Positions 33,504 to 51,209 of a DNA stretch of 64,000 nucleotides are shown one piece after another (position 1 is the first letter of the stretch; each line of letters starts with the position of its first letter). The stretch is taken from contig NZ_LR590470.1 in the NCBI RefSeq assembly GCF_901472535.1, positions 1,426,001-1,490,000 of the forward strand. Reading direction: 5' to 3'. Origin of the DNA: Sphingobacterium daejeonense (GTDB lineage Bacteria; Bacteroidota; Bacteroidia; Sphingobacteriales; Sphingobacteriaceae). Both the position numbers and the translations under genes were made by a program. The notes below the pieces were generated by a model, which was given only the letters and a program-made list of their open reading frames with translations, did not search any database and had not been told where the DNA came from.

Positions 33504-34172
33504 ACCTCTTTTAGCTTTTTGATTTCTTCTCGCCTCCTATCTATACTGTATAATAGTTTGTTTTCCTCTTCTCTTTTAATCACCAAATCGTGGAATTTAT
33601 CAGAGTTTAGAGAGTATGCGGAATCGATGTGCGCAGTAATATCTGGCATTTCCAAAGTCATCATCCGGTAACGAAGTTCATACGATGTCTTATCACCGAT
33701 CTGTCGATCCTTTTCCAGTAACATACCTAATCCCAATGAAAGAATGATCGAAAAACAATATCATGATAATGACCACGGGCGTGGATTTCAGGTCAACGCC
33801 GTAAAGATGCCTTATCTTCACGCTGTCGGGTATCTGAGATACTTTGGCAACTATTTCATTTTCCTTTTCAGTCAATATTGAAAGGTGTTTGCTTGTTGTC
33901 TCGGAACTCCTGTTGGCTACATCTTCCAGAGAACCGTAGTCTTTGATAATCTTGGATAAGATGTCGTGTTCCTGTTTGATAAAGGCTTTTATCTGGGTTA
34001 GATGTTCCTGATCCTTTGCACGCATATCGTGAAATTCCTGCATCGCTTTTTCATTTGCCGAGAGCAACGATACAATGGTCGGCATGATGCGTACAATATC
34101 TTCCGTAATGAGGTCTGTGTTCTCCTGTAGGGAATCGACCTGCTGTTTGATGTTTTCCAATTCTGTCTGCAT
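33497..34172 (-). CDS. Mob-module membrane protein with coiled coil, one frameshift
   Basis: A long N-terminal coiled coil (NIKQQVDSLQENTDLITEDI) is followed by one transmembrane segment (VVIIMILFF, continuing as LGLGMLL in the next frame, shift near 33735) and a helical tail (VIKREEENKLLYSIDRRREE). Layout and position after the relaxase match the protein at 10347-10980 in element 1. Only 5 bases separate it from the relaxase gene. Function unknown; a membrane link for the relaxosome is possible. Confidence 0.6.
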
Positions 34173-34177
34173 AATTT

Positions 34178-35090
34178 CTAACGTTTTAATTTCCAGTTCT
34201 TTTTCTTTTTTCGTTTTTTGATAAAGGGGTCTTCCTGCTCCGGTGTAATTTCAGGGATCGAAAATAAAGCGGATGCTATATCTCCGATAGTTTCGCCGAT
34301 ACTGGTATCTGTCAGGTGACCTGTCGAAACGTTGCTTTCCACCTTGTGGAATTGTTCCTGTACGTTATCGATCCCGTTCAATGCCTTGTCGATCTGTCCG
34401 AAGCTCAACGAACGGTCAACGGCAGAACCCTGAAATACCTGTCCGTTCTTGGAAAATGAAACGCCCTGTATTTCATCTGTTCCCGACCGGTACTTAAACT
34501 GGATTTCCACACCCCTGTACCGTATATAGTTTTCCAGTTCAGCCCAGTTTTTGCTGTGGCGTTATACCTGCCTTGACAGTATCGTAAATCTGGTATCTTG
34601 TCCTGTCGTTACCTTTGAGCCGTCCCCTGTTGACATTCTCTTTGCCCTCGGACTGCTTGAAGCCATACATGGCATTGAGTTCCTTACAGGCTTTAAAGCT
34701 CTTGTACCTCCCATTGCTGTTGGAGATCGTCTTGCCATAATCGTTCACACGGTTGTAAATGATGTGGATGTGATCGTGTTTGCGGTCATGATGTCTGACC
34801 ATCAGACACTGTGTATCCTTGATCCCCATTTTGGAGAGATACCGCTTGGCGGATGACACCATGATGTCATTGTTCAGCATGTTCTTGTCATCGGTATTCC
34901 ATGAGAGAATAATATGCCCGACTGCATTGCCCAATCTGGGGTTCAGCATCCGCTGAAAATTAAAATCCTGTGCAATGGTCTTAGCCGAATCCGTCCGCAG
35001 TCCGTTAGCGTGGATGATCTCACTGTCTTTTTTCAGCACATACCCCACACATCCGCCGAATGATTTCCCCTCAATTATCTTCGCTATCAT
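34178..35090 (-). CDS. Mobilisation relaxase of element 2, one frameshift
   Basis: Start ATG 35090 gives MIAKIIEGKSFGGCVGYVLK, the same opening as the element-1 relaxase. The upstream in-frame extension is not used because it overlaps mobC too far. The His motif is VRHHDRKHDHIHIIYNRV, after NAVGHIILSW. One shift near 34530 leads into FKYRSGTDEIQGVSFSKNG and a basic tail (FIKKRKKKKNWKLKR). About 304 residues. It overlaps mobC by 20 bases and should nick the oriT upstream of mobC. Confidence 0.87.
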
Positions 35091-35433
35091 GGCGCAGTAG
35101 TTTATCGATACAATGGTTGATGTGGCTGATCGTATTCCGGCACTCCGTTGCCACGTCAAGCAATCCTGTTTGGTGGGCTTTCTTTGTCAACTGGTTGAGG
35201 TTGTTCGAAGCTCCTGTGATTGCCCTGAACGCTTTCAACTGTTCTTGTGTAAACCTCGGCACGATCTTGCGAAGGATCGCACTTTTACGTACCCATTCTG
35301 ATTTGCTCATGCCTGCGGTTTCTGCATTATGCAGAACCTTTTTATGTTCCGTTTCATCGAAACGGACATTGATCCTAAACCGCTTTTTATTTTCCAGTGC
35401 GGGTCTACCGCCTTTGTTCTTGGTGTCTGTCAT
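35071..35433 (-). CDS. mobC: MobC-type relaxosome accessory protein of element 2
   Basis: ATG 35433 gives MTDTKNKGGRPALENKKRF, a basic start, then INVRFDETEHKKVLHNAETA and MSKSEWVRKSAILRK. The MobC hallmark ASNNLNQLTKKAHQTG is near the C-terminus. The protein has about 120 residues, similar to the one at 9014. It overlaps the relaxase start. The candidate oriT lies just upstream. Confidence 0.86.
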   Translation of the reverse strand: MTDTKNKGGRPALENKKRFRINVRFDETEHKKVLHNAETAGMSKSEWVRKSAILRKIVPRFTQEQLKAFRAITGASNNLNQLTKKAHQTGLLDVATECRNTISHINHCIDKLLRHDSEDN

Positions 35434-35448
35434 GATGTTCTTTTTTCG

Positions 35449-35506
35449 CTGCGACCATCGGGAGCTTATCGGTTTTGGGGTCACCAAAACACAACCTTGC
35501 TCCCTA
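35449..35506 (-). other. Candidate oriT of element 2
   Basis: On the minus strand TAGGGAGCAAG (35506-35496) and GCTCCCGATGGTCGCAG (35465-35449) flank the hairpin GTTTTGG/CCAAAAC. The outer blocks are the same as in 8899-8988 although the hairpin between differs, which points to functional conservation as a transfer origin. Confidence 0.55.
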
Positions 35507-36458
35507 CCTATTCGATAGCTTTCTCCCCGATGGGATATTTTGGGACTGTCCTTGTGAGGAGGTTAAGATCAGGTAGTCATTGACATCCTTGATCCGTTTG
35601 CCCGGTCCCTGTAGTTGCTTGGTTCCATTTTTTACGGTGTGCGTTTTTCTCAAATTGACCCAGTAAAATCTGGTAAGATTTTTTCCCGCTCGCGTCATTG
35701 TCCAGATAACTCGTTATACCATTATGCCGCTGAAAGAATGGAAATGCTTTTTGCAGATTGGCGGTCGTATTCAGGACGCAGTAATTGGCATCTAGATAGG
35801 CCTTACCTGCATTCTTTTTTAATGTCATAAAGGACAGCAAGTCCATGAAGCTCTCAAACAGTACAACATCTTTGTTGTCGTTATCGATCGTAGTAATACC
35901 CTTTGTCAAAAGCGAGCGTTTGTCATAACTGTAACGGAGTTCGTATCCACCTGCATCATTCCTAAAACACACGGCAAAGAAGCCCTGTCCTTTTGCCGTA
36001 CGGTAATAGATTTCCTGACAGTATGCCTCGGCAATTTCAAGATCTATTTTGCGCACATCGCTCAGGTAGTCTGTCAGCGCTCTGTTGCCGAGCGGTTTTA
36101 TTGAAATTATGGTGTACGCCGGTTCATTATCAAGTCGCATAGCTGGCGCTTTGTCCCATACGGTCTGCTGGTGAAAAGAAAGGATATTTTTTCTTTCACC
36201 AGCCCAGTCCAGTACCCTGGACAGGTTGTCCGTTTCCAGGAACTTCAACAAAAAATCGATGTTGTTCCCTCCCAAACCTTCCGAATGGGAATACCAGATG
36301 TTCCTTTGGATATCCACTTTTGTGGAAGCCGTTTTTTCGTTCCCGCTCTTGAATGGATTCCTGAACCATGCTTCACGGCTGTTCATCCTGGCGCACGGAA
36401 TCTCAAGATATTCCAATATGGATATGAGCGGTATTCGCTTTAATTCTTCACATGTCAT
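35504..36458 (-). CDS. Toprim primase-like protein, frameshifted at its end
   Basis: The N-terminus resembles a degenerate CHC2-type region (IPLISILEYLEIPCARMNSR, then NIWYSHSEGLGGNNIDF). A Toprim domain follows: DVVLFESFMDLLSFM with the acidic Glu, and TSYLDNDASGKKSYQ with the DxD-like pair. A shift near 35625 leads from KKSYQILLGQFEKNAH into VKNGTKQLQGPGKRIKDVND and a stop at 35504. Such proteins occur with RepA-like ATPases in Bacteroidota mobilizable elements and support replication of the excised form. Start ATG 36458. Confidence 0.8.
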
Positions 36459-36527
36459 GTTCTTAATTTATAGAGAGGTTTAGTTTAGTCTATTACTATA
36501 TAGGGCAGACTAAACTAAACCTGTTTT

Positions 36528-37574
36528 TTAATAGTAAAATGCAGGATTGAACCGATAGGTCCTATCTTTCTTGATGATCATCCGCTTGTTCTCCAAAAAG
36601 GTCTTTAACTGCTTGGCTTTATTGATCCCAAAATTGAAGCCTTTTGCCAGATAGGCCTCCTTTAGTCTCTTGACAAAATCATCATAACTGCAGGTGATCT
36701 CTGAATCGTTTAACAGTTCCTGAAATACCTCTCGGAGGTTCTCTTCCGAGAGTTCCTGAAAGCTGAACCCTTTTTTTGCTTTGGGACCTGTTAGGTCAAA
36801 ATTTTCATCCAGTACGGGCAGACCATCGTCAATAAAAAAGGTGAACGGTTCAAATTCGACATCCCTGATGAATTTAGGTGTTACGGTGCTGTAGTTTGAT
36901 TCCAGGTCGTTTTTGGTGACCTGCAGGATAGATTCCGCCTTATTGTTCAGTTCTGTGCCCAGATGGCCCCGTGTGTTGTCATCTCCCTTGTTCAGGTGCA
37001 GTACGGTGTGGATATGGATATTCAGCTCCTGCGACCACTTCATCAGCCTGTTCGTAATTTCGGTTGCTTCGGTGGCGTTATTGATGTCGTACACAAGATC
37101 CCTGATCCCATCTATGATGAGCAGACTGATCCTATCGGTATATTTGTACAGGGCATATTCAATGATGTTGATGCGTTTCTTGGTCGGGTACACCCTTAAG
37201 GAAATGAACCGTAGGTTATCATGGACTTCCGTTGGCGGATAATCGATGAGCCTGTAAACCCTTGAAAGTAACCTGTGGCAATGGAACTTGCTCTGTTCGG
37301 TATCGCAGTACAATACCAACGGACGGTTTACGGGAACCTTTACCTTGTACTGTAGCACCTGTTTTCCGCACAATGCAGCAGCGACCATTGAGATCACGTT
37401 GAATGTCTTCCTGCTCTTTGCCTTTCCCGTGGATGCGCTGAAATTCCCAAGGGTTCCGATGACGGAATCCGAATTATCGATGGTTATCATGATTGGAGGT
37501 TCTAAGAATTCATCTGTTATCTTGACCATGGCCCTGTCCAGGGCGATGGCTGTTTCCTGCTTAAGTGGAATCAT
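36528..37574 (-). CDS. RepA-like RecA-fold ATPase (element replication/mobilisation)
   Basis: The intact 348-residue protein has a P-loop NFSASTGKAKSRKTF at about residues 43-57 and Walker B ISLLIIDGIRDLVYDI at about 154-169. A helicase-like HTVLHLNKGDDNTRGHLGTE lies at about 193-212. A C-terminal winged-helix region includes FNFGINKAKQLKTFLENKRM. It matches RepA/BmgC-like hexameric ATPases of small mobile elements. Its ATG overlaps the stop of the HTH gene (TAATG), and the primase gene follows, so HTH, RepA-like and primase form one operon. Confidence 0.8.
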   Translation of the reverse strand: MIPLKQETAIALDRAMVKITDEFLEPPIMITIDNSDSVIGTLGNFSASTGKAKSRKTFNVISMVAAALCGKQVLQYKVKVPVNRPLVLYCDTEQSKFHCHRLLSRVYRLIDYPPTEVHDNLRFISLRVYPTKKRINIIEYALYKYTDRISLLIIDGIRDLVYDINNATEATEITNRLMKWSQELNIHIHTVLHLNKGDDNTRGHLGTELNNKAESILQVTKNDLESNYSTVTPKFIRDVEFEPFTFFIDDGLPVLDENFDLTGPKAKKGFSFQELSEENLREVFQELLNDSEITCSYDDFVKRLKEAYLAKGFNFGINKAKQLKTFLENKRMIIKKDRTYRFNPAFYY

Positions 37575-37873
37575 TATCTATCTCCTCTTGTCCGGTTGAA
37601 GCCGGCCATTGAGGCCACTACCTCCTGTTTTTTGAAGTAGATCCTTTTTCCCATCCGCATGTACGGTATACGTCCCTGTTTCATCCAATCGGTCAGGCTG
37701 ACCAGGGAAATGTCCAGTTCGGCCGCCATTTCCTTTTTGGTCAGGAGTTTTTCTGTCGGCTGTCTCTCCGGATTACCGGCAGCCTTTCGAAAGCCAGAAA
37801 TGAATAGCTGCATTTCTTCCCTTACGGCATCCTTGATGCAATCTCTAAGGGCTTTTTGGTCAAATTGAATCAT
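37574..37873 (-). CDS. Helix-turn-helix excisionase-like protein
   Basis: The 99-residue protein ends with a MerR/Xis-type winged helix: LLTKKEMAAELDISLVSLTD for the HTH, then WMKQGRIPYMRMGKRIYFKK for the wing. The N-terminal half is helical. It is the first gene of the RepA-like/primase operon and probably regulates it or assists excision. ATG 37873 is the natural start. Confidence 0.8.
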   Translation of the reverse strand: MIQFDQKALRDCIKDAVREEMQLFISGFRKAAGNPERQPTEKLLTKKEMAAELDISLVSLTDWMKQGRIPYMRMGKRIYFKKQEVVASMAGFNRTRGDR

Positions 37874-38203: not shown

Positions 38204-39298
38204 TCATTCGAGGATTACGTTTATACCGGCCATGTTTGCCTTGTACCGGATCATCTCTATCAGGCCAAAATAACTCCAATTCCGAAGAAGGAACCCATCT
38301 TCTTTGGCGACCTCTTCCTTGGAGGACTGGTTGACCAATAGCAGGGTGCCGGCCTGTGACTTTACACAGATGTCAATCAGGCGCCGGCTATAGAGATGCA
38401 GCCGACTTTCCACATAGGCACGTTCCTTCTGCTTGAAGCGATCCAGGCTCTGTAGCTTCTTCTTCCTTCCATGTCCACCTCTGTTGAAGGCCGCAGCTTT
38501 TTGCAATCGGTGCCTTGCGGCCTGTATGGCCAGGCGCCGATAAAGGAATTCCTCTTTGTCGCCTATCTGGAAATTGTCCCTGTCAATGGTTACCGTGATC
38601 GGGTACTCGACAGATAGCGAGGCTTCAGCGATGACATGTTCCTTGAGTTCATGTCTGTCCTTGGGGAGTTCCAGTGCCAATAGCAGGAATATCTTGCCTT
38701 TCACTATTTTAATGGAACTCGTGCATATCTTGATCTGGCCGACCAGGGCCCTCTGCAAGAGTACCCTTTTATCCGATCGGTCCTTTCCCAGGTAAGTACG
38801 GAATGGAATCTTGAAGAGTGTCAGTTTGAAATCCCGACCTTTCTCGTCACTGGCCAGTTTTACCTGATCTCCACCGAATGGGATGGGCATATCTTTCCTG
38901 TAGTTTCTCAATGACTTTTCTCCTTTCCAATAAGCTGACCGATCGGTACTGTAGGCCTTGTTCAAGGTCATGTTCATGGCCGAAATAATCCGGGAAGGCA
39001 ACCTGTCCTTAAAATAACGTGACAGAATCCGGTATGTCGTGTTCATTTTCGAAGAGGTGAAAATACCATCGGGATCTTTTTTGAAATCTGCCAGTTTTAC
39101 CTTGACATCTTCCCTGAGATAGATCAGTTCCTTTATCTGTTCCTGTACATATTGGTGCGTCATCACAATATTGGCGCCACGGTAGACCATATCCTGCCAC
39201 TCAAACAGTTGCTTGAAATATGCCGATCGCTGCTCCTTGTCGTCACAGTCCAGGGAGATCTGGATCTTTCTGGTTAATATGATGGTATCCTTTTCCAT
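38204..39298 (-). CDS. TnpB/Cas12f-like RuvC-fold protein, probably nuclease-dead
   Basis: The intact 364-residue protein has a helical N-terminal half (WQDMVYRGANIVMTHQYVQE, then GIFTSSKMNTTYRILSRYFK) and a RuvC-like C-terminal half laid out as in TnpB/Cas12f. The parts are ITVTIDRDNFQIG (strand of RuvC-I, about 234-246), a bridge-helix-like RRLAIQAARHRLQKAAAFN, RLHLYSRRLIDICVKSQAG, and GTLLLVNQSS where TnpB has its RuvC-II Glu (here Asn323). The end is NWSYFGLIEMIRYKANMAGI, and the protein stops there, so the zinc ribbon and RuvC-III Asp are absent. It follows the sigma gene by 12 bases with a good ribosome-binding site (AGGAGAAAGAT). Guide-dependent DNA binding is inferred. Confidence 0.7.
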   Translation of the reverse strand: MEKDTIILTRKIQISLDCDDKEQRSAYFKQLFEWQDMVYRGANIVMTHQYVQEQIKELIYLREDVKVKLADFKKDPDGIFTSSKMNTTYRILSRYFKDRLPSRIISAMNMTLNKAYSTDRSAYWKGEKSLRNYRKDMPIPFGGDQVKLASDEKGRDFKLTLFKIPFRTYLGKDRSDKRVLLQRALVGQIKICTSSIKIVKGKIFLLLALELPKDRHELKEHVIAEASLSVEYPITVTIDRDNFQIGDKEEFLYRRLAIQAARHRLQKAAAFNRGGHGRKKKLQSLDRFKQKERAYVESRLHLYSRRLIDICVKSQAGTLLLVNQSSKEEVAKEDGFLLRNWSYFGLIEMIRYKANMAGINVILE

Positions 39299-39310
39299 AT
39301 CTTTCTCCTA

Positions 39311-40123
39311 TTATGCTGTTTTCTTTCCTGTTTTTATTCTGGCATGTGCCTGTACAAAGAGCTTTTTGACAGCTGCTGGGCTGAGGTTCAGCTCTTTTGA
39401 GATCTGTTCGAAGGATAATTGCAGTTCATAGCGCATGTGAAAGATCTCTGCCTGCTGTCCGTCAAATTCCCCCTGCAGCACGATCTTGGCAGGGCCGTTC
39501 ATCAGCTCCATCTTTTGGGAACTGTTAAGTATGGCACGCAGGGTATCGATGGTTTTTTCCACTTGCCTGCTGACCTCATAGTCCGATATTCCCCCGAGAT
39601 AATATGCGATCCGCCCGTAGTTGAAACTGTACTTTAAGCAGAGCTCGATGAACAATTGCTGCTTCTGGTTGAGGTTTGGCAGGAGGTTCCTGAGCTTATC
39701 CAAGCGTTGCTTTTTTTCTTCATCTATTTCATCCAGATAAATCACGTCCATCGCCACCTCGTCCTCCATGGCATAGCTGTGCAAAAACTCTTGATAATCC
39801 TCGATGCCATCCAACCTCAACAGGCTTCGGTGGAACCTGTTGTTTGATTTGGTGTAGAAATCGCGGATAGCCGATCTTACCTGAGTTTTTAGGAAGGTCA
39901 GTATATCTTCAATGCCATTGACCTTTGCACGGAACAGCCATAAACGAAACAAGGCTTCCTGAGCAATGCTTTGTGAGGCGCAGTCATCTTTTGTGGCGCG
40001 GAATGCCCTTGCGAAAAGATATCCGTATAACCTATGGTAGAAGAAGTCCAACCCTCTTTCGTCCCCTTGCCGTAATAGGCTCGTATATTTCTGTGTCTGT
40101 TGCTCTTGTAAGGTTTTTTTCAT
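39311..40123 (-). CDS. ECF-like sigma factor with two region-4-type HTH domains
   Basis: ATG 40123 gives a 270-residue protein (a TTG six bases upstream is less likely; the duplicate copy at 49617 also starts at this ATG). Residues 21-90 match sigma region 2: FFYHRLYGYLFARAFRATKD, then QSIAQEALFRLWLFR and FLKTQVRSAIRDFY. Residues 145-197 form a first helical HTH-like region (LPNLNQKQQLFIELCLKYSF). Residues 217-265 form a second one (IFHMRYELQLSFEQISKELN, then LSPAAVKKLFVQAHARIK). A doubled region 4 is unusual for ECF factors. The TnpB-like gene follows 12 bases downstream, so the two are co-translated. Confidence 0.75.
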   Translation of the reverse strand: MKKTLQEQQTQKYTSLLRQGDERGLDFFYHRLYGYLFARAFRATKDDCASQSIAQEALFRLWLFRAKVNGIEDILTFLKTQVRSAIRDFYTKSNNRFHRSLLRLDGIEDYQEFLHSYAMEDEVAMDVIYLDEIDEEKKQRLDKLRNLLPNLNQKQQLFIELCLKYSFNYGRIAYYLGGISDYEVSRQVEKTIDTLRAILNSSQKMELMNGPAKIVLQGEFDGQQAEIFHMRYELQLSFEQISKELNLSPAAVKKLFVQAHARIKTGKKTA

Positions 40124-40717
40124 GATCAAAGTTTTGGTCTACCCTCCCTATACAGATCCCGGCCGGCCTTAACGGATTTCTTGGAAACCGGGATGCTGTG
40201 ATAGAATTATATCAAAGCTGATTAAATCATTGACGTTATCGGTATTGATTGATTTTTGATGGACTTGGCAGCAAGACGTTGTGAAATATGTTCTCATTTA
40301 AGCTTTTATTGACTGATAGCCTGACCACATTTAATGTGGATACTTAATTATTCTTTTACTTTTGATGGTTTTTAGAAATAAGCTGAAATAATTGAAGGTG
40401 GTAGGATATACTTATAGGGGACGGCCCAACGTTGTGAATAATCTATTTTACGCTAATCAAAAGCCGACCTCCATTTTTTTATACTTTTAAATGTTTTCAA
40501 CTGAAACGGAGAGAGCCCATTTGAGTATATCTACTACTCATCAAGTGAAATCCCATTTAACTGCATATATTGTAATGTTATTGAGAGCGTGAGAAACCCG
40601 TTGCGTATAGCTAAGGGATTTAAAGCAGCCCAGTGTGTAATATCACGGAGTCTTCATTAAGTCCCACTCTTCATATATACGAATGCATTAGCCTACCGTC
40701 TTTTGCAAATAAATAGT

Positions 40718-40766
40718 ATTTAGCGAGTGACTATTGTCCTCACTCTACGGCGTCACAAGCCACCTC
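40718..40766 (+). ncRNA. Structured repeat R1 (candidate guide RNA scaffold)
   Basis: It contains GAGTGACTATTGTCCTCACT and ACGGCGTCACAAGCCACCTC. CGAG/CTCA-type pairing closes a hairpin, and GTGAC can pair with GTCAC further on, giving a possible pseudoknot. Strand is given as the strand on which the copies are described; transcription is not proven. Confidence 0.5.
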
Positions 40767-40912
40767 AATGCTGTTTATCAAATAAGCTTATTAAGAGGAT
40801 TTGCTATAATCTCAATTTTAAAAAGAGCCACCTAAGTACTTCTTTTTGCTGTCACAGACGGACCACAAAATCTATGTGGAACCGTCAAGAACGTTGTATA
40901 TTTCGTTAAAGA

Positions 40913-40961
40913 ATTTAGTGAGTGACTATTGTCCTCACTCTACGGCGTCACAAGCAGCCTC
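40913..40961 (+). ncRNA. Structured repeat R2
   Basis: This is the best-preserved copy: ATTTAGTGAGTGACTATTGT, then CCTCACTCTACGGCGTCACA and AGCAGCCTC. GTGAG pairs with CTCAC and GTGAC with GTCAC. It is preceded by CGTTGTATATTTCGTTAAAG, shared in pattern with R3 and R6. Confidence 0.5.
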
Positions 40962-41344
40962 TTAATATTTATTATCGCAATCAAATCCTGTTTTGCTTTT
41001 GTTATAATATACTAAAAGACTCGATAAGTGATTGTGAATAATCATCATCCGGATACGGTCGCATATCCCAGACATCTTCTTTTAAAACAAGGATGAGTGT
41101 ACTTCCAGAAATAACAAATGCCCAATATTCAATCGCTATGTATATCCTAATTTTCAAAGTTCTTCAAAATCAGAGAGAAAGTCCTCCTTTGTGTTTTTTT
41201 GTTAAAGCTGACAGGGAACGCTTTGAATATTCTCTGCTGTAATAAGCTGATTCAAAAAACTTACATGAGCCAACCTATATCCTTATTATTTCGATCCACG
41301 GAATCTTCGTGATACCGCTAGGACGTTGTGTTTTGCTATAAAGA

Positions 41345-41372
41345 ATTTAGTGAGCGACTGTTGTCCTCACTC
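41345..41372 (+). ncRNA. Structured repeat R3 (3' half missing)
   Basis: ATTTAGTGAGCGACTGTTGT and CCTCACTC match R2; then the sequence departs into a T-run. The hairpin part is kept and the GGCGTCACAAGCAGCCTC part is lost. Confidence 0.45.
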
Positions 41373-41478
41373 TTTTTTTAAGTTTACGTGAGTATTGCCT
41401 TTGTACAATAGGGTTTTCAATTAACTGATTTCAATAATTGTAAATCGCTTAGAAACAATGCATATCACAATAAAAATT

Positions 41479-41528
41479 ATTTGGTGAGTAATTATTATCC
41501 TCACCCCTACGGCGTCACAAGCAGCCTC
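41479..41528 (+). ncRNA. Structured repeat R4
   Basis: ATTTGGTGAGTAATTATTAT, then CCTCACCCCTACGGCGTCAC and AAGCAGCCTC. The GTGAG/CTCAC stem is kept. It is followed by unique sequence and then the 57-base block shared with 50596-50652. Confidence 0.5.
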
Positions 41529-41583
41529 GTTATGTTTTCTTAATGTTTTTTAATTTTCCATTTTGACTTTTTAATTTCAATAC

Positions 41584-41701
41584 CAATACGTCAAAGAAAA
41601 TCCAGCTGTTGCTGATGGTTACAATAATCCGTAACTTTAGATCAAAGTTATTTCATTACATATTATTTTCGCGTATGGTATTCTACCGATTTACCGGTAA
41701 A
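41584..41701. promoter_or_regulatory. Regulatory block duplicated from the XRE gene upstream region
   Basis: The 57-base block 41584-41640 differs at about four positions from 50596-50652 and contains GTTAC-N8-GTAAC. TTTACCGGTAAA at 41690-41701 equals 50702-50713. At 50 kb this region leads into the XRE regulator gene; here that gene has been replaced by unrelated sequence, so the operators are orphaned. Confidence 0.55.
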
Positions 41702-41951
41702 AAACCATTCCATAATTTTCATTAATTATGAATACTACTTAAAAAAAATACGAAACCATTAATTATAGCTTTTCTATATTCAAACCTTTTACAAAATAAT
41801 TTATTTCCAGTTTTCGTGAACTCCTATTAAAGAATTGAATGATATTTAATGTTAAAATTTTACGCTAACTTTGATTTGATATACAATTACCAATAGTAAA
41901 AAGGATTAATACTTTTTTAACCTTATGAGTTAACTTCTTACAGTTGCCAGC

Positions 41952-49494: not shown

Positions 49495-49617
49495 CTAGGA
49501 AAGTTGCTTTGCGGTATCGCCGCTTACCTGGGATAGAAAGTCCAACCATCTTTTGTACCCTTGCCGTAATAGGTTCGTATACCTCTGTGTTTGTTGCTCT
49601 TGTAATGTTTTTTTCAT
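49495..49617 (-). pseudogene. N-terminal remnant of a second sigma factor copy
   Basis: MKKTLQEQQTQRYTNLLRQG at 49617 is nearly identical to the start of the sigma factor at 40123 (QKYTSLLRQG there). Similarity stops after about 25 codons (KRWLDF), where the TraG fragment begins. The sequence before the start codon is also homologous to that before 40123. Confidence 0.85.
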
Positions 49618-50019
49618 GGTCAAAGTTTTGGTATGCTCCCTATACGGATCCCGGCAGGCACTATCGGATTTCTTGGGGACCGGGATGCTGTGATAGGTTA
49701 ATATCAATGCTAAAAAATTAAGGTATCGGTGCTGTATGGTTCCTTCCAGTGATATTGTTCTTGCAGTGCTGTGGTGAGCGTGAGAAACTAATTGTGTATC
49801 TATCAGAAAATTTCTGTAGTCCAACATATTTGGAAGGCAAAAAAGGATTTCTGTCAAAATGTACACATGCTACCGAAAGCTCTGTAGATGACAAACCTAT
49901 ACACCGGGGATTGTGTATGTCCGAATTATTGGATTTAGATCCGCTGATAATTTCTAGGCTGAGGTTCAAGGTTTACATATACTAATGCATTGAACTACCG
50001 ACTGAACCAAATAAATAGG

Positions 50020-50068
50020 ATTTAGTAAGTGACCTTTGTCCTCACCCAACGGCGTAACAAGCAGCCTC
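50020..50068 (+). ncRNA. Structured repeat R5
   Basis: ATTTAGTAAGTGACCTTTGT, then CCTCACCCAACGGCGTAACA and AGCAGCCTC. The preceding ATACTAATGCATTGAACTAC resembles the sequence before R1, so R5 is the counterpart of R1 in the second copy of the locus. Confidence 0.5.
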
Positions 50069-50500
50069 ATTTTTATATCTTGAGAGATTTATAGTTTTTT
50101 TATTTCACTTAGGGACTTGGAATTAATAGTCTGTCACATTGCATCGAGCTAATGATGGAATGTCAATGTCGTTGGTTAGGGACTCGAAAAAAATGTGGTA
50201 CCATTAAGAATGTTGCATTTCTAATAAGCATTTGATGTGAGATGCTCTCATCAATGCAGCTGAAATGGCCCACAATATTTTATTAAATGGGATGTGTTGT
50301 CCCTCCCAGCGAAGCCAGCGAATGAGTTTGAAAATAAAAAAGTTCCCATTTGCTTTATTTCTTTTATATCATTTCTAACAATAGATTTTCCAATATCCTT
50401 CACTCCATAAAGGGCCATGCCCTTTACAGGTGTGATCGTTACCAGTTGATGGCATTCCTCAAGAGGGATTCGGCCTGAAAGTTGTTAATTCGATAAAAGA

Positions 50501-50549
50501 ATTTGGTGAGTAACCATTGTTCTCACCCTACGGCGTCACAAGAAGCCTC
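50501..50549 (+). ncRNA. Structured repeat R6
   Basis: ATTTGGTGAGTAACCATTGT, then TCTCACCCTACGGCGTCACA and AGAAGCCTC. GTGAG pairs with CTCAC. It is followed by unique sequence and the 57-base block that also follows R4, so R6 is the counterpart of R4. Confidence 0.5.
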
Positions 50550-50595: not shown

Positions 50596-50713
50596 CAATA
50601 CGTCAAAGAAAACACAGCTATTGCTGATGGTTACAATAATCCGTAACTTTAGACCTAAGTTAAATGTTTACTTTTCAATATCGTGAGTGGTTTCTTACCG
50701 ATTTACCGGTAAA
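50596..50713. promoter_or_regulatory. Promoter/operator region of the XRE gene
   Basis: A 57-base conserved block (50596-50652, with GTTAC-N8-GTAAC) and the palindrome TTTACCGGTAAA (50702-50713) lie directly upstream of the XRE regulator. Both also occur at 41584-41701. They are likely operators bound by the XRE protein, controlling its own gene and the adjacent repeat/sigma region. Confidence 0.55.
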
Positions 50714-50771
50714 GCACCGATCCATTATTTTGATGATTATGAATACTAATTTTAAGGATAAAAAACAAACC

Positions 50772-51209
50772 ATGCATATCGGCCACAACATCAAGCGTAT
50801 CCGTGAGATCCAGGGGATCAAACAGGAGGCATTCGGCCAACTCTGTCGGAACAGGTATTCTCAACAAAGGATTTCAGACTTTGAGAATATGGTCGATCTG
50901 GATGAAGCCCTTTTGGAAGAACTTGCAACGGCATTGAGAGTTACACCTGAATTTGTTAAGTCCTTTAAGGATGAAAATGTAATTTATAATATTCAAAATA
51001 ACAATAATACATTTAATGACAATTCAGTCGATCAGAGTCATAGCCAACATACACAACCAACAATCCATAATGATGGGTCAGATAAGCTGGTTGCCCTGCT
51101 CGAAAAATTTATTGAGGAAGATCGCGTAAAGACGCAGTCCATTGCAGAGCTCAGCAAAGCTGTTCTTGACCTGATGAATGAAATAAAAAACCTCAAGGGT
51201 AGCAACTAG
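50772..51209 (+). CDS. XRE-family regulator of the sigma/repeat locus
   Basis: The intact protein starts at ATG 50772 (MHIGHNIKRIREIQGIKQEA), with ATG 50739 as an alternative. The HTH_3 domain spans about residues 1-60 (FGQLCRNRYSQQRISDFENM). An Asn/Gln-rich linker follows (YNIQNNNNTFNDNSVDQSHS), then a coiled-coil end (LLEKFIEEDRVKTQSIAELS). It is the intact relative of the broken XRE gene at 12365. It reads away from the structured repeats, with conserved operator-like sequences before it. Confidence 0.8.
   Translation: MHIGHNIKRIREIQGIKQEAFGQLCRNRYSQQRISDFENMVDLDEALLEELATALRVTPEFVKSFKDENVIYNIQNNNNTFNDNSVDQSHSQHTQPTIHNDGSDKLVALLEKFIEEDRVKTQSIAELSKAVLDLMNEIKNLKGSN

Follow-up and report, generated by a model that had tools for sequence, protein, structure and literature searches.

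The question raised by this locus is whether a gene for an ECF-type sigma factor and the adjoining gene for a nuclease-dead, Cas12f-like protein form an RNA-guided transcription system and, if so, which sites such a system would address. Both genes lie in a window of 64,000 nucleotides, the whole stretch of DNA that was analysed (G000:C1:1426001-1490000), in a genome (G000, referred to as the own genome) that consists of a single 4.73-Mb contig.

The sigma factor and its dead Cas12f partner

The sigma factor gene (39311..40123, minus strand, ATG at 40123, stop at 39311) encodes a protein of 270 amino acids and is followed on the same strand, after a gap of 12 bases, by the gene for the nuclease-dead Cas12f protein (dCas12f) of 364 amino acids (38204..39298, ATG at 39298, stop at 38204). 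The sigma protein exceeds the Pfam cut-off for sigma region 4, stays below that for sigma region 2 (20.2 versus 24 bits) and passes the NCBIfam model sigma70-ECF. Its sole match in the PDB at E 0.001 or better is chain C of 9n9q, named 'RpoE' (E 1.2e-30). The dCas12f protein matches 9n9c, 'Nuclease-deactivated Cas12f', over residues 2-363 (E 1.7e-119); a Pfam scan of this protein gave no match, and the NCBIfam model guided_TnpB remained under its cut-off (62.6 versus 100 bits, E 3.9e-17). Because the two proteins match chains of a single solved system (9n9c and 9n9q), the pair belongs to the system for which these structures were solved, and judged from these similarities it is a member of the dCas12f-sigma family of RNA-guided transcription systems, i.e., of a known kind and not of a new class. 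A structure prediction based on 15 sequences was poor (mean pLDDT 53.5).

All three RuvC motifs of the window protein are altered or missing. In the alignment with the solved Cas12f 9nzo, the RuvC-I aspartate is replaced by S227, and the 41 full-length family members, which exclude the broken copy L075 (G193:C32) with its internal stop codons, carry S (37), A (2), T (1) or D (1) at this position. The RuvC-II glutamate is absent, the corresponding residues being V322/N323; position 323 is N in 39 and D in two of the 41 members, none of which has a glutamate at 322 or 323. In the window protein and its relatives, the chain stops before RuvC-III and the zinc ribbon. The family proteins comprise 359-391 residues as called (41 members), full-length frames are present in 41 of 42 loci, and 54 residues are invariant in the alignment. 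L088 is the only one of the 41 proteins with an aspartate at RuvC-I (AEADLS), and it still lacks the glutamate and RuvC-III; upstream of its sigma gene, ORFs resembling SusD and SusC were observed.

The first-pass annotation had described two reading frames of these lengths, positions and spacing, which is confirmed, as are the Asn at RuvC-II and a protein that ends before the zinc ribbon and RuvC-III. Its assignment to TnpB/Cas12f-like proteins is supported by the match to 9n9c, with guided_TnpB below the cut-off. Sigma region 2, which it called clear, is visible, but only region 4 reaches the Pfam cut-off. The loss of the RuvC-I aspartate and the guide-RNA units described below were absent from it.

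Matches to dCas12f at E 1e-30 were found in 72 of 301 genomes sampled within the family, and matches at E 1e-40 in six of 395 genomes sampled within the class, two of them outside the family. Among 28 named loci, 25 come from Sphingobacterium, and the rest are a Parapedobacter locus, a metagenome-assembled Neobacillus genome and a weak Lactobacillus match. Forty-two loci were compared, namely the window, a second copy in the own genome (copy 2, L005) and 40 relatives picked from the family search at E 1e-30. The sigma and TnpB-like genes form a conserved pair, which the earlier reading had proposed to look for: a sigma match lies beside dCas12f in 37 of the 42 loci and in both outgroups (G605, G585), although it is split over two frames in three of the 37 (L005, L078, L083). 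Five loci (L081, L082, L084, L086, L087) have no sigma gene, nor any sigma remnant at E 0.01, and have kept dCas12f, the guide units and an HTH gene. These sigma-less loci are not one clade, as their distribution takes four label changes on the tree, at least three of which are forced by well-supported branches. Copy 2, which lies outside the window, has a dCas12f that is 85% identical and an interrupted sigma gene, and a C-terminal fragment of dCas12f (L003) is found elsewhere in the own genome.

Guide-RNA units, arrays and neighbouring genes

Upstream of the sigma gene, the window contains a repeat of ~50 nt. On the operon strand, the units built on it read GAGGCTGCTTGTGACGCCGTAGGGTGAGG-loop-CACTCACTAAATACC, followed by a variable stretch, a repeat end near GGTATACACAAC and variable sequence, and their scaffold presumably resembles a Cas12f tracrRNA. 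Five full units and one truncated unit are present in the window, all on the minus strand. Unit w1 (40680..40766) has its scaffold from 40766, a candidate guide at 40701-40680 and a degenerate repeat end; w2 (40872..40961) has its scaffold from 40961 and a candidate guide at 40892-40872; and w4 (41436..41528) has its scaffold from 41528, a candidate guide at 41456-41436 and again a degenerate repeat end. In the truncated unit w3 (41305..41372), the 5' part of the scaffold is missing, and the guide (41324-41305) matches a SusCD leader of the own genome. Two further units, w5 (49982..50068, candidate guide 50003-49982, degenerate repeat end) and w6 (50460..50549, candidate guide 50480-50460), lie beside a decayed second copy.

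In the own genome, nine unit matches reach E 2.2e-7 or better, all of them at the three copy sites, and the next best has E 0.03; a pattern for the scaffold core was found seven times in forward and never in reverse orientation, with none in the control. Full units number 82 in 41 of the 42 loci, every one on the operon strand, and L092 is the sole locus in which no full unit was found. Each of the two outgroups has one unit, located directly downstream of the dCas12f gene. Because of this outgroup arrangement and the repeat arrays, the guide RNA is placed on the operon strand with the AT-rich part upstream of it, which is probably its promoter. The opposite reading, in which the AT-rich sequence next to GCCTC would be the guide, was rejected after local and genome searches had found no target, and the group L106/L110/L123 was dropped, as it looked like a tRNA terminator.

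The upper stem of the scaffold hairpin, which includes a bulged A and comprises the three base pairs on top of GUGAG/CUCAC, covaries: in the 82 of 84 units that were parsed, and in a bulged register chosen after looking, 221 of 246 cells are paired, compared to a mean of 170 and a maximum of 183 in 2000 shuffles that ignore relatedness. Eighteen stem types occur among the 60 fully paired units, and when identical hairpins are counted once, 179 of 204 cells are paired against a shuffle maximum of 149. The register of hairpin 2 without the bulge gave no excess pairing (460, shuffle mean 461). The lower hairpin is paired in 349 of 420 cells (maximum of 1000 shuffles, 325). Folded singly, w2 and w4 did not clearly stand out from shuffles, with z of -1.5 and -0.8. 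The units are predicted to be transcribed and bound by dCas12f.

In 13 of the 42 loci, a custom pattern detected repeat ends in series with a spacing of 58-72 nt (72 ends in total). The repeats of these CRISPR-like arrays have a length of 36 nt, e.g., GGTGTTACTAACCACATTTTGAAAGGTATACACAAC, and are separated by spacers of ~30 nt; the array of L085 has a tandem period of 66. In the window, and likewise in the loci most closely related to it, arrays are degenerate and the units carry their own repeat end at ~64-72 nt in those cases in which the pattern found one, and a window-type unit with its own repeat end is like a natural single guide RNA. One of five searched spacers of L062 is identical to its own chromosome over 31 of 31 bases (30 spacer bases and one shared with the repeat end) on the sense strand inside era (L230). 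This match is preceded by C, with a G one base further out, and, located inside a gene, it looks accidental. No match to plasmids was found for the L062 array, and the L085 array gave only weak matches to phages (E 0.1-0.5).

An HTH gene, usually on the opposite strand beside the guide units, is present in 30 of the 42 loci (family F2 in 19, F3 in 12, both in L080), among them all five sigma-less ones, and an HTH_3 domain was detected in one F3 member. The F3 gene of the window, an HTH_3 regulator gene (50664..51209, plus strand), is divergent from w5 and w6, and such divergent HTH genes may control the guide units. The decayed copy also includes a 5' fragment of a second sigma gene with its leader (49538..49711, minus strand), which is 86% identical to 40044-40219. 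At 41560..41760 (plus strand), the window resembles the leader that precedes the HTH gene in copy 2; the gene itself is missing here, and the similarity stops at the gene start. A conserved sequence similar to TCAATACCAATAnGTCAAAGAA was observed beside the HTH-proximal unit in L069, L071, L073, L074, L077, L078 and L081 and at ~41583-41606 of the window, and is perhaps an HTH binding site or the promoter of the unit.

On its other side, dCas12f of the window adjoins a mobilisation-type module (33693-37873) with HTH_17, AAA_25, Toprim_2 and a MobA/VirD2-like relaxase; an ORF within it (35071-35487) looks MobC-like. The system had initially been placed on a mobile element, for which the comparison of loci gives no general support: the neighbouring HTH_17 gene family (F31) occurs in only two of the 42 loci, the window included. 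A stretch similar to the HTH_17 end of the module was seen beside a C-terminal dCas12f fragment (L004 4607-4989; G000:C1:1063226).

Candidate sites in SusCD leaders and upstream of sigma genes

Some guides taken from relatives have matches in the structured leaders at the 5' end of SusCD operons, the site being mostly preceded by a G. Guide B (GTTCTTGRCGGTACCAC) has 61 places with up to three mismatches in five genomes, compared to 63 for its reversed control, and guide C (AGACGGTAGGYTAATGCA) has 19 in four genomes, compared to 26, so that neither is in excess. The sole match of guide B with at most one mismatch outside guide loci lies in a SusCD leader of G247, and a related intergenic element in G163 shows three mismatches to the guide. 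For guide C, the best non-guide matches, with two mismatches each, are in G093, in a SusCD leader, and in G247, not near SusCD. The G093 site lies in a conserved non-coding element, element 1, which is also present in G163, G102 and G193 (alignment A1). In a search of 15 genomes, the own genome yielded no copy of element 1, and none was detected in plasmids, in phages or, with one exact pattern, in viral contigs. Two weak matches in G107 and G045 were rejected, L296 lying in a coding frame and L297 being without such a site.

A second guide family also fits element 1, with 16 of 18 positions for L060 and 14 of 18 for L085; none of the shuffled guides reached 16, and about two per set reached 14. 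Unit w1 of the window fits at 15 of 18. At the first site of element 1, the base in front is A in three of four genomes, and at the second it is G in all four; across six distinct same-genome sites the preceding base is G in five and C in G585. A 5'-G target motif is reportedly used by the dCas12f-sigmaE system.

The six copies of the element (L298-L303) each precede SusC- and SusD-like genes, as judged by mutual similarity; where Pfam was scanned, SusC was identified in L300 and L302 and SusD in L299, L300 and L303. A redoxin-like ORF is located before SusC in L299, L300 and L303, SusC of L301 lies in two frames, and Pfam identified MauE in L299, ORFs resembling it being present in L298, L302 and L303. 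No Rfam match overlapped element 1 or the leaders in L201 and L198. Folding of the leaders gave z of -3.5 (L309) and -5.9 (L302), with the sites inside the hairpin, and the leader matches are putative targets of the system. Conserved structured leaders upstream of SusCD operons were observed at L292-L295, L201 and L198; beside these leaders lies a divergent ORF, with a weak, sub-cut-off HTH_3 match in L277 and a similar one in L299.

A search for SusC in the own genome returned four loci at E 1e-50, one of which, L309 (SusC at G000:C1:237128), bears a leader of the guide-B type. The guide of w3 matches this leader exactly over its first 12 nt and at 16 of 18 positions in total, with a G before the site. 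In shuffled sets of nine guides, which left out the candidate guides wA and wD, 7 of 400 sets reached 16 of 18 over 56 kb and 22 of 400 gave an exact 12-nt prefix; within the 1-kb leader, which was picked after the w3 match had been seen, the corresponding figures are 0 and 2 of 2000. On the related leaders, w3 scores 16 of 18 in the own genome, 7 in G247 and 6 in G163, and the guide of G247 scores 16 on its own leader and 8 on that of G000. Between G000 and G247, a change in the guide is thus accompanied by one in the site. The guides of G163 reach only 13 and 8 of 18 on their own leader. However, w3 is the unit whose scaffold is missing its 5' part, and both SusC and SusD of L309 look interrupted. 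For the other eight own guides, the four SusCD loci yielded no target (13-14 of 18 at most), the intact own locus L308 had no own-guide match, and no promoter or terminator consensus beyond shuffles was detected in the L309 leader.

In the outgroups, the matching sites lie upstream of the sigma gene itself. The single guide of G605 (L189/L190) matches at 15 of 16 positions, after a G, 210 bp upstream of its own sigma gene, and that of G585 (L191/L192) at 13 of 16, after a C, 170 bp upstream, both scores being given without a shuffle control. These matches suggest that the system may feed back on its own sigma operon in G605 and G585, i.e., autoregulation. Among 60 candidate positions in the family loci, no own-guide site was found upstream of sigma, the top matches being repeat sequence.

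Predicted mechanism, alternatives and known systems

We consider it likely that the pair, as a member of the dCas12f-sigma family, would act as an RNA-guided sigma factor with guide RNAs from the linked scaffold units. The first-pass annotation had proposed a dead Cas12f/TnpB protein and a sigma factor aimed by a guide RNA; this is supported by the homology to the solved dCas12f-RpoE system, the linkage, the guide units and the candidate sites, and the reading as a candidate RNA-guided transcription system stands, though as a known kind rather than a new class. In the proposed mechanism, the guide RNA from a linked unit would tether dead Cas12f to a leader where the DNA matches, and the bound sigma factor would recruit RNA polymerase, with transcription likely starting just downstream of the site. 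Such a start would bypass or complement the leader hairpin. Binding of dCas12f-sigma would thereby activate operons for TonB-dependent uptake (SusCD) and, in the two outgroup loci, their own sigma operon. Binding, the direction of its effect and its inputs are what we infer from sequence.

An RNA-guided repressor, in which dCas12f and its guide obstruct transcription at the leaders in the manner of TldR and the sigma factor is an accessory or a separate regulator, is unlikely. It would account for the five of 42 loci in which dCas12f, units and HTH gene persist although no trace of sigma is left at E 0.01, and for the four tree changes (at least three forced) behind the sigma-less label; the candidate sites inside structured leaders also fit a repressor, and TldR repressors have been published (PMC13418256). 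Against this stand the sigma gene adjacent in 37 of 42 loci and the match of both proteins to one solved dCas12f-RpoE system. The same linkage, in 37 of 42 loci and both outgroups, together with one system as the nearest solved relative of both proteins, makes it extremely improbable that an ordinary ECF sigma factor merely adjoins a TnpB-like gene by chance, even though ECF sigma genes are numerous in Bacteroidota; this explanation is disfavoured.

Decay is visible at several points: the repeats of the window are degenerate, the w3 scaffold is truncated, the sigma gene runs in two frames in L005, L078 and L083, dCas12f of L075 has stop codons, and L003 is a C-terminal fragment. That arrays and operon are nothing more than functionless leftovers of a CRISPR-Cas12f system is nevertheless very unlikely in view of a dCas12f frame that is full-length in 41 of 42 loci and has 54 invariant residues, a scaffold hairpin preserved by compensatory change, and a guide and site that differ jointly between G000 and G247.

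With the RNA-guided sigma factor as the preferred reading, a broader scenario can be put forward tentatively, and it is as a whole somewhat doubtful. A retired CRISPR immunity system would have become a reprogrammable transcription switchboard, in which tracr-like units and arrays, including a spacer from the own chromosome, serve as an address list that sends dCas12f-sigma to the hairpin leaders of SusCD operons. Guides and leaders would co-evolve, distant branches would switch on their own sigma operon, and the sigma-less lineages would act as repressors. In Bacteroidota, which have numerous sigma factors and SusCD operons, it is difficult to foresee which factor goes with which operon; if this pairing is made by guides, regulon membership would be readable from DNA. 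Concrete guide-leader pairs are the G247 guide with L302, w3 of G000 with L309 and the G605 guide with the leader of its own sigma gene. Sigma-less loci and arrays may represent natural intermediates that link CRISPR immunity with RNA-guided activation and repression.

Three known systems invite comparison. The locus resembles CRISPR-Cas12f (type V-F) in the homology to Cas12f structures such as 9nzo and in the tracr-like unit beside 36-nt repeats and ~30-nt spacers in relatives. Type V-F is defined by an active RuvC nuclease with a zinc ribbon; here, in contrast, catalytic residues and zinc ribbon are absent, and at least one spacer has its match in the own chromosome. TldR proteins are described as TnpB-like, nuclease-dead repressors, i.e., transcription factors that use a guide RNA (PMC13418256), and to that extent a dead RuvC relative with a guide RNA acting as transcription factor is common to both. 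Whereas TldR denotes a dead TnpB without sigma that represses, a sigma gene is adjacent here, both in the window and across the compared loci (37 of 42), the closest PDB relative is Cas12f, and activation rather than repression is expected. The closest likeness is to dCas12f-sigmaE (PDB 9n9c, 9n9m, 9n9o, 9n9q), whose dead Cas12f of 365 and RpoE of 261 amino acids align nearly over their whole length with the proteins of the window. The system of 9n9c and 9n9q is, we assume, that of Flagellimonas taeanensis reported in 2025. Adjacent genes and a guide-RNA scaffold are shared with it, and the G before most sites may be a further common trait, as that system reportedly has it as well. In apparent contrast to dCas12f-sigmaE, the loci described here have several separate guide units upstream of sigma (w1-w4, with w5-w6 beside the decayed copy), a divergent HTH gene, arrays in 13 of 42 loci and a repeated loss of the sigma factor.
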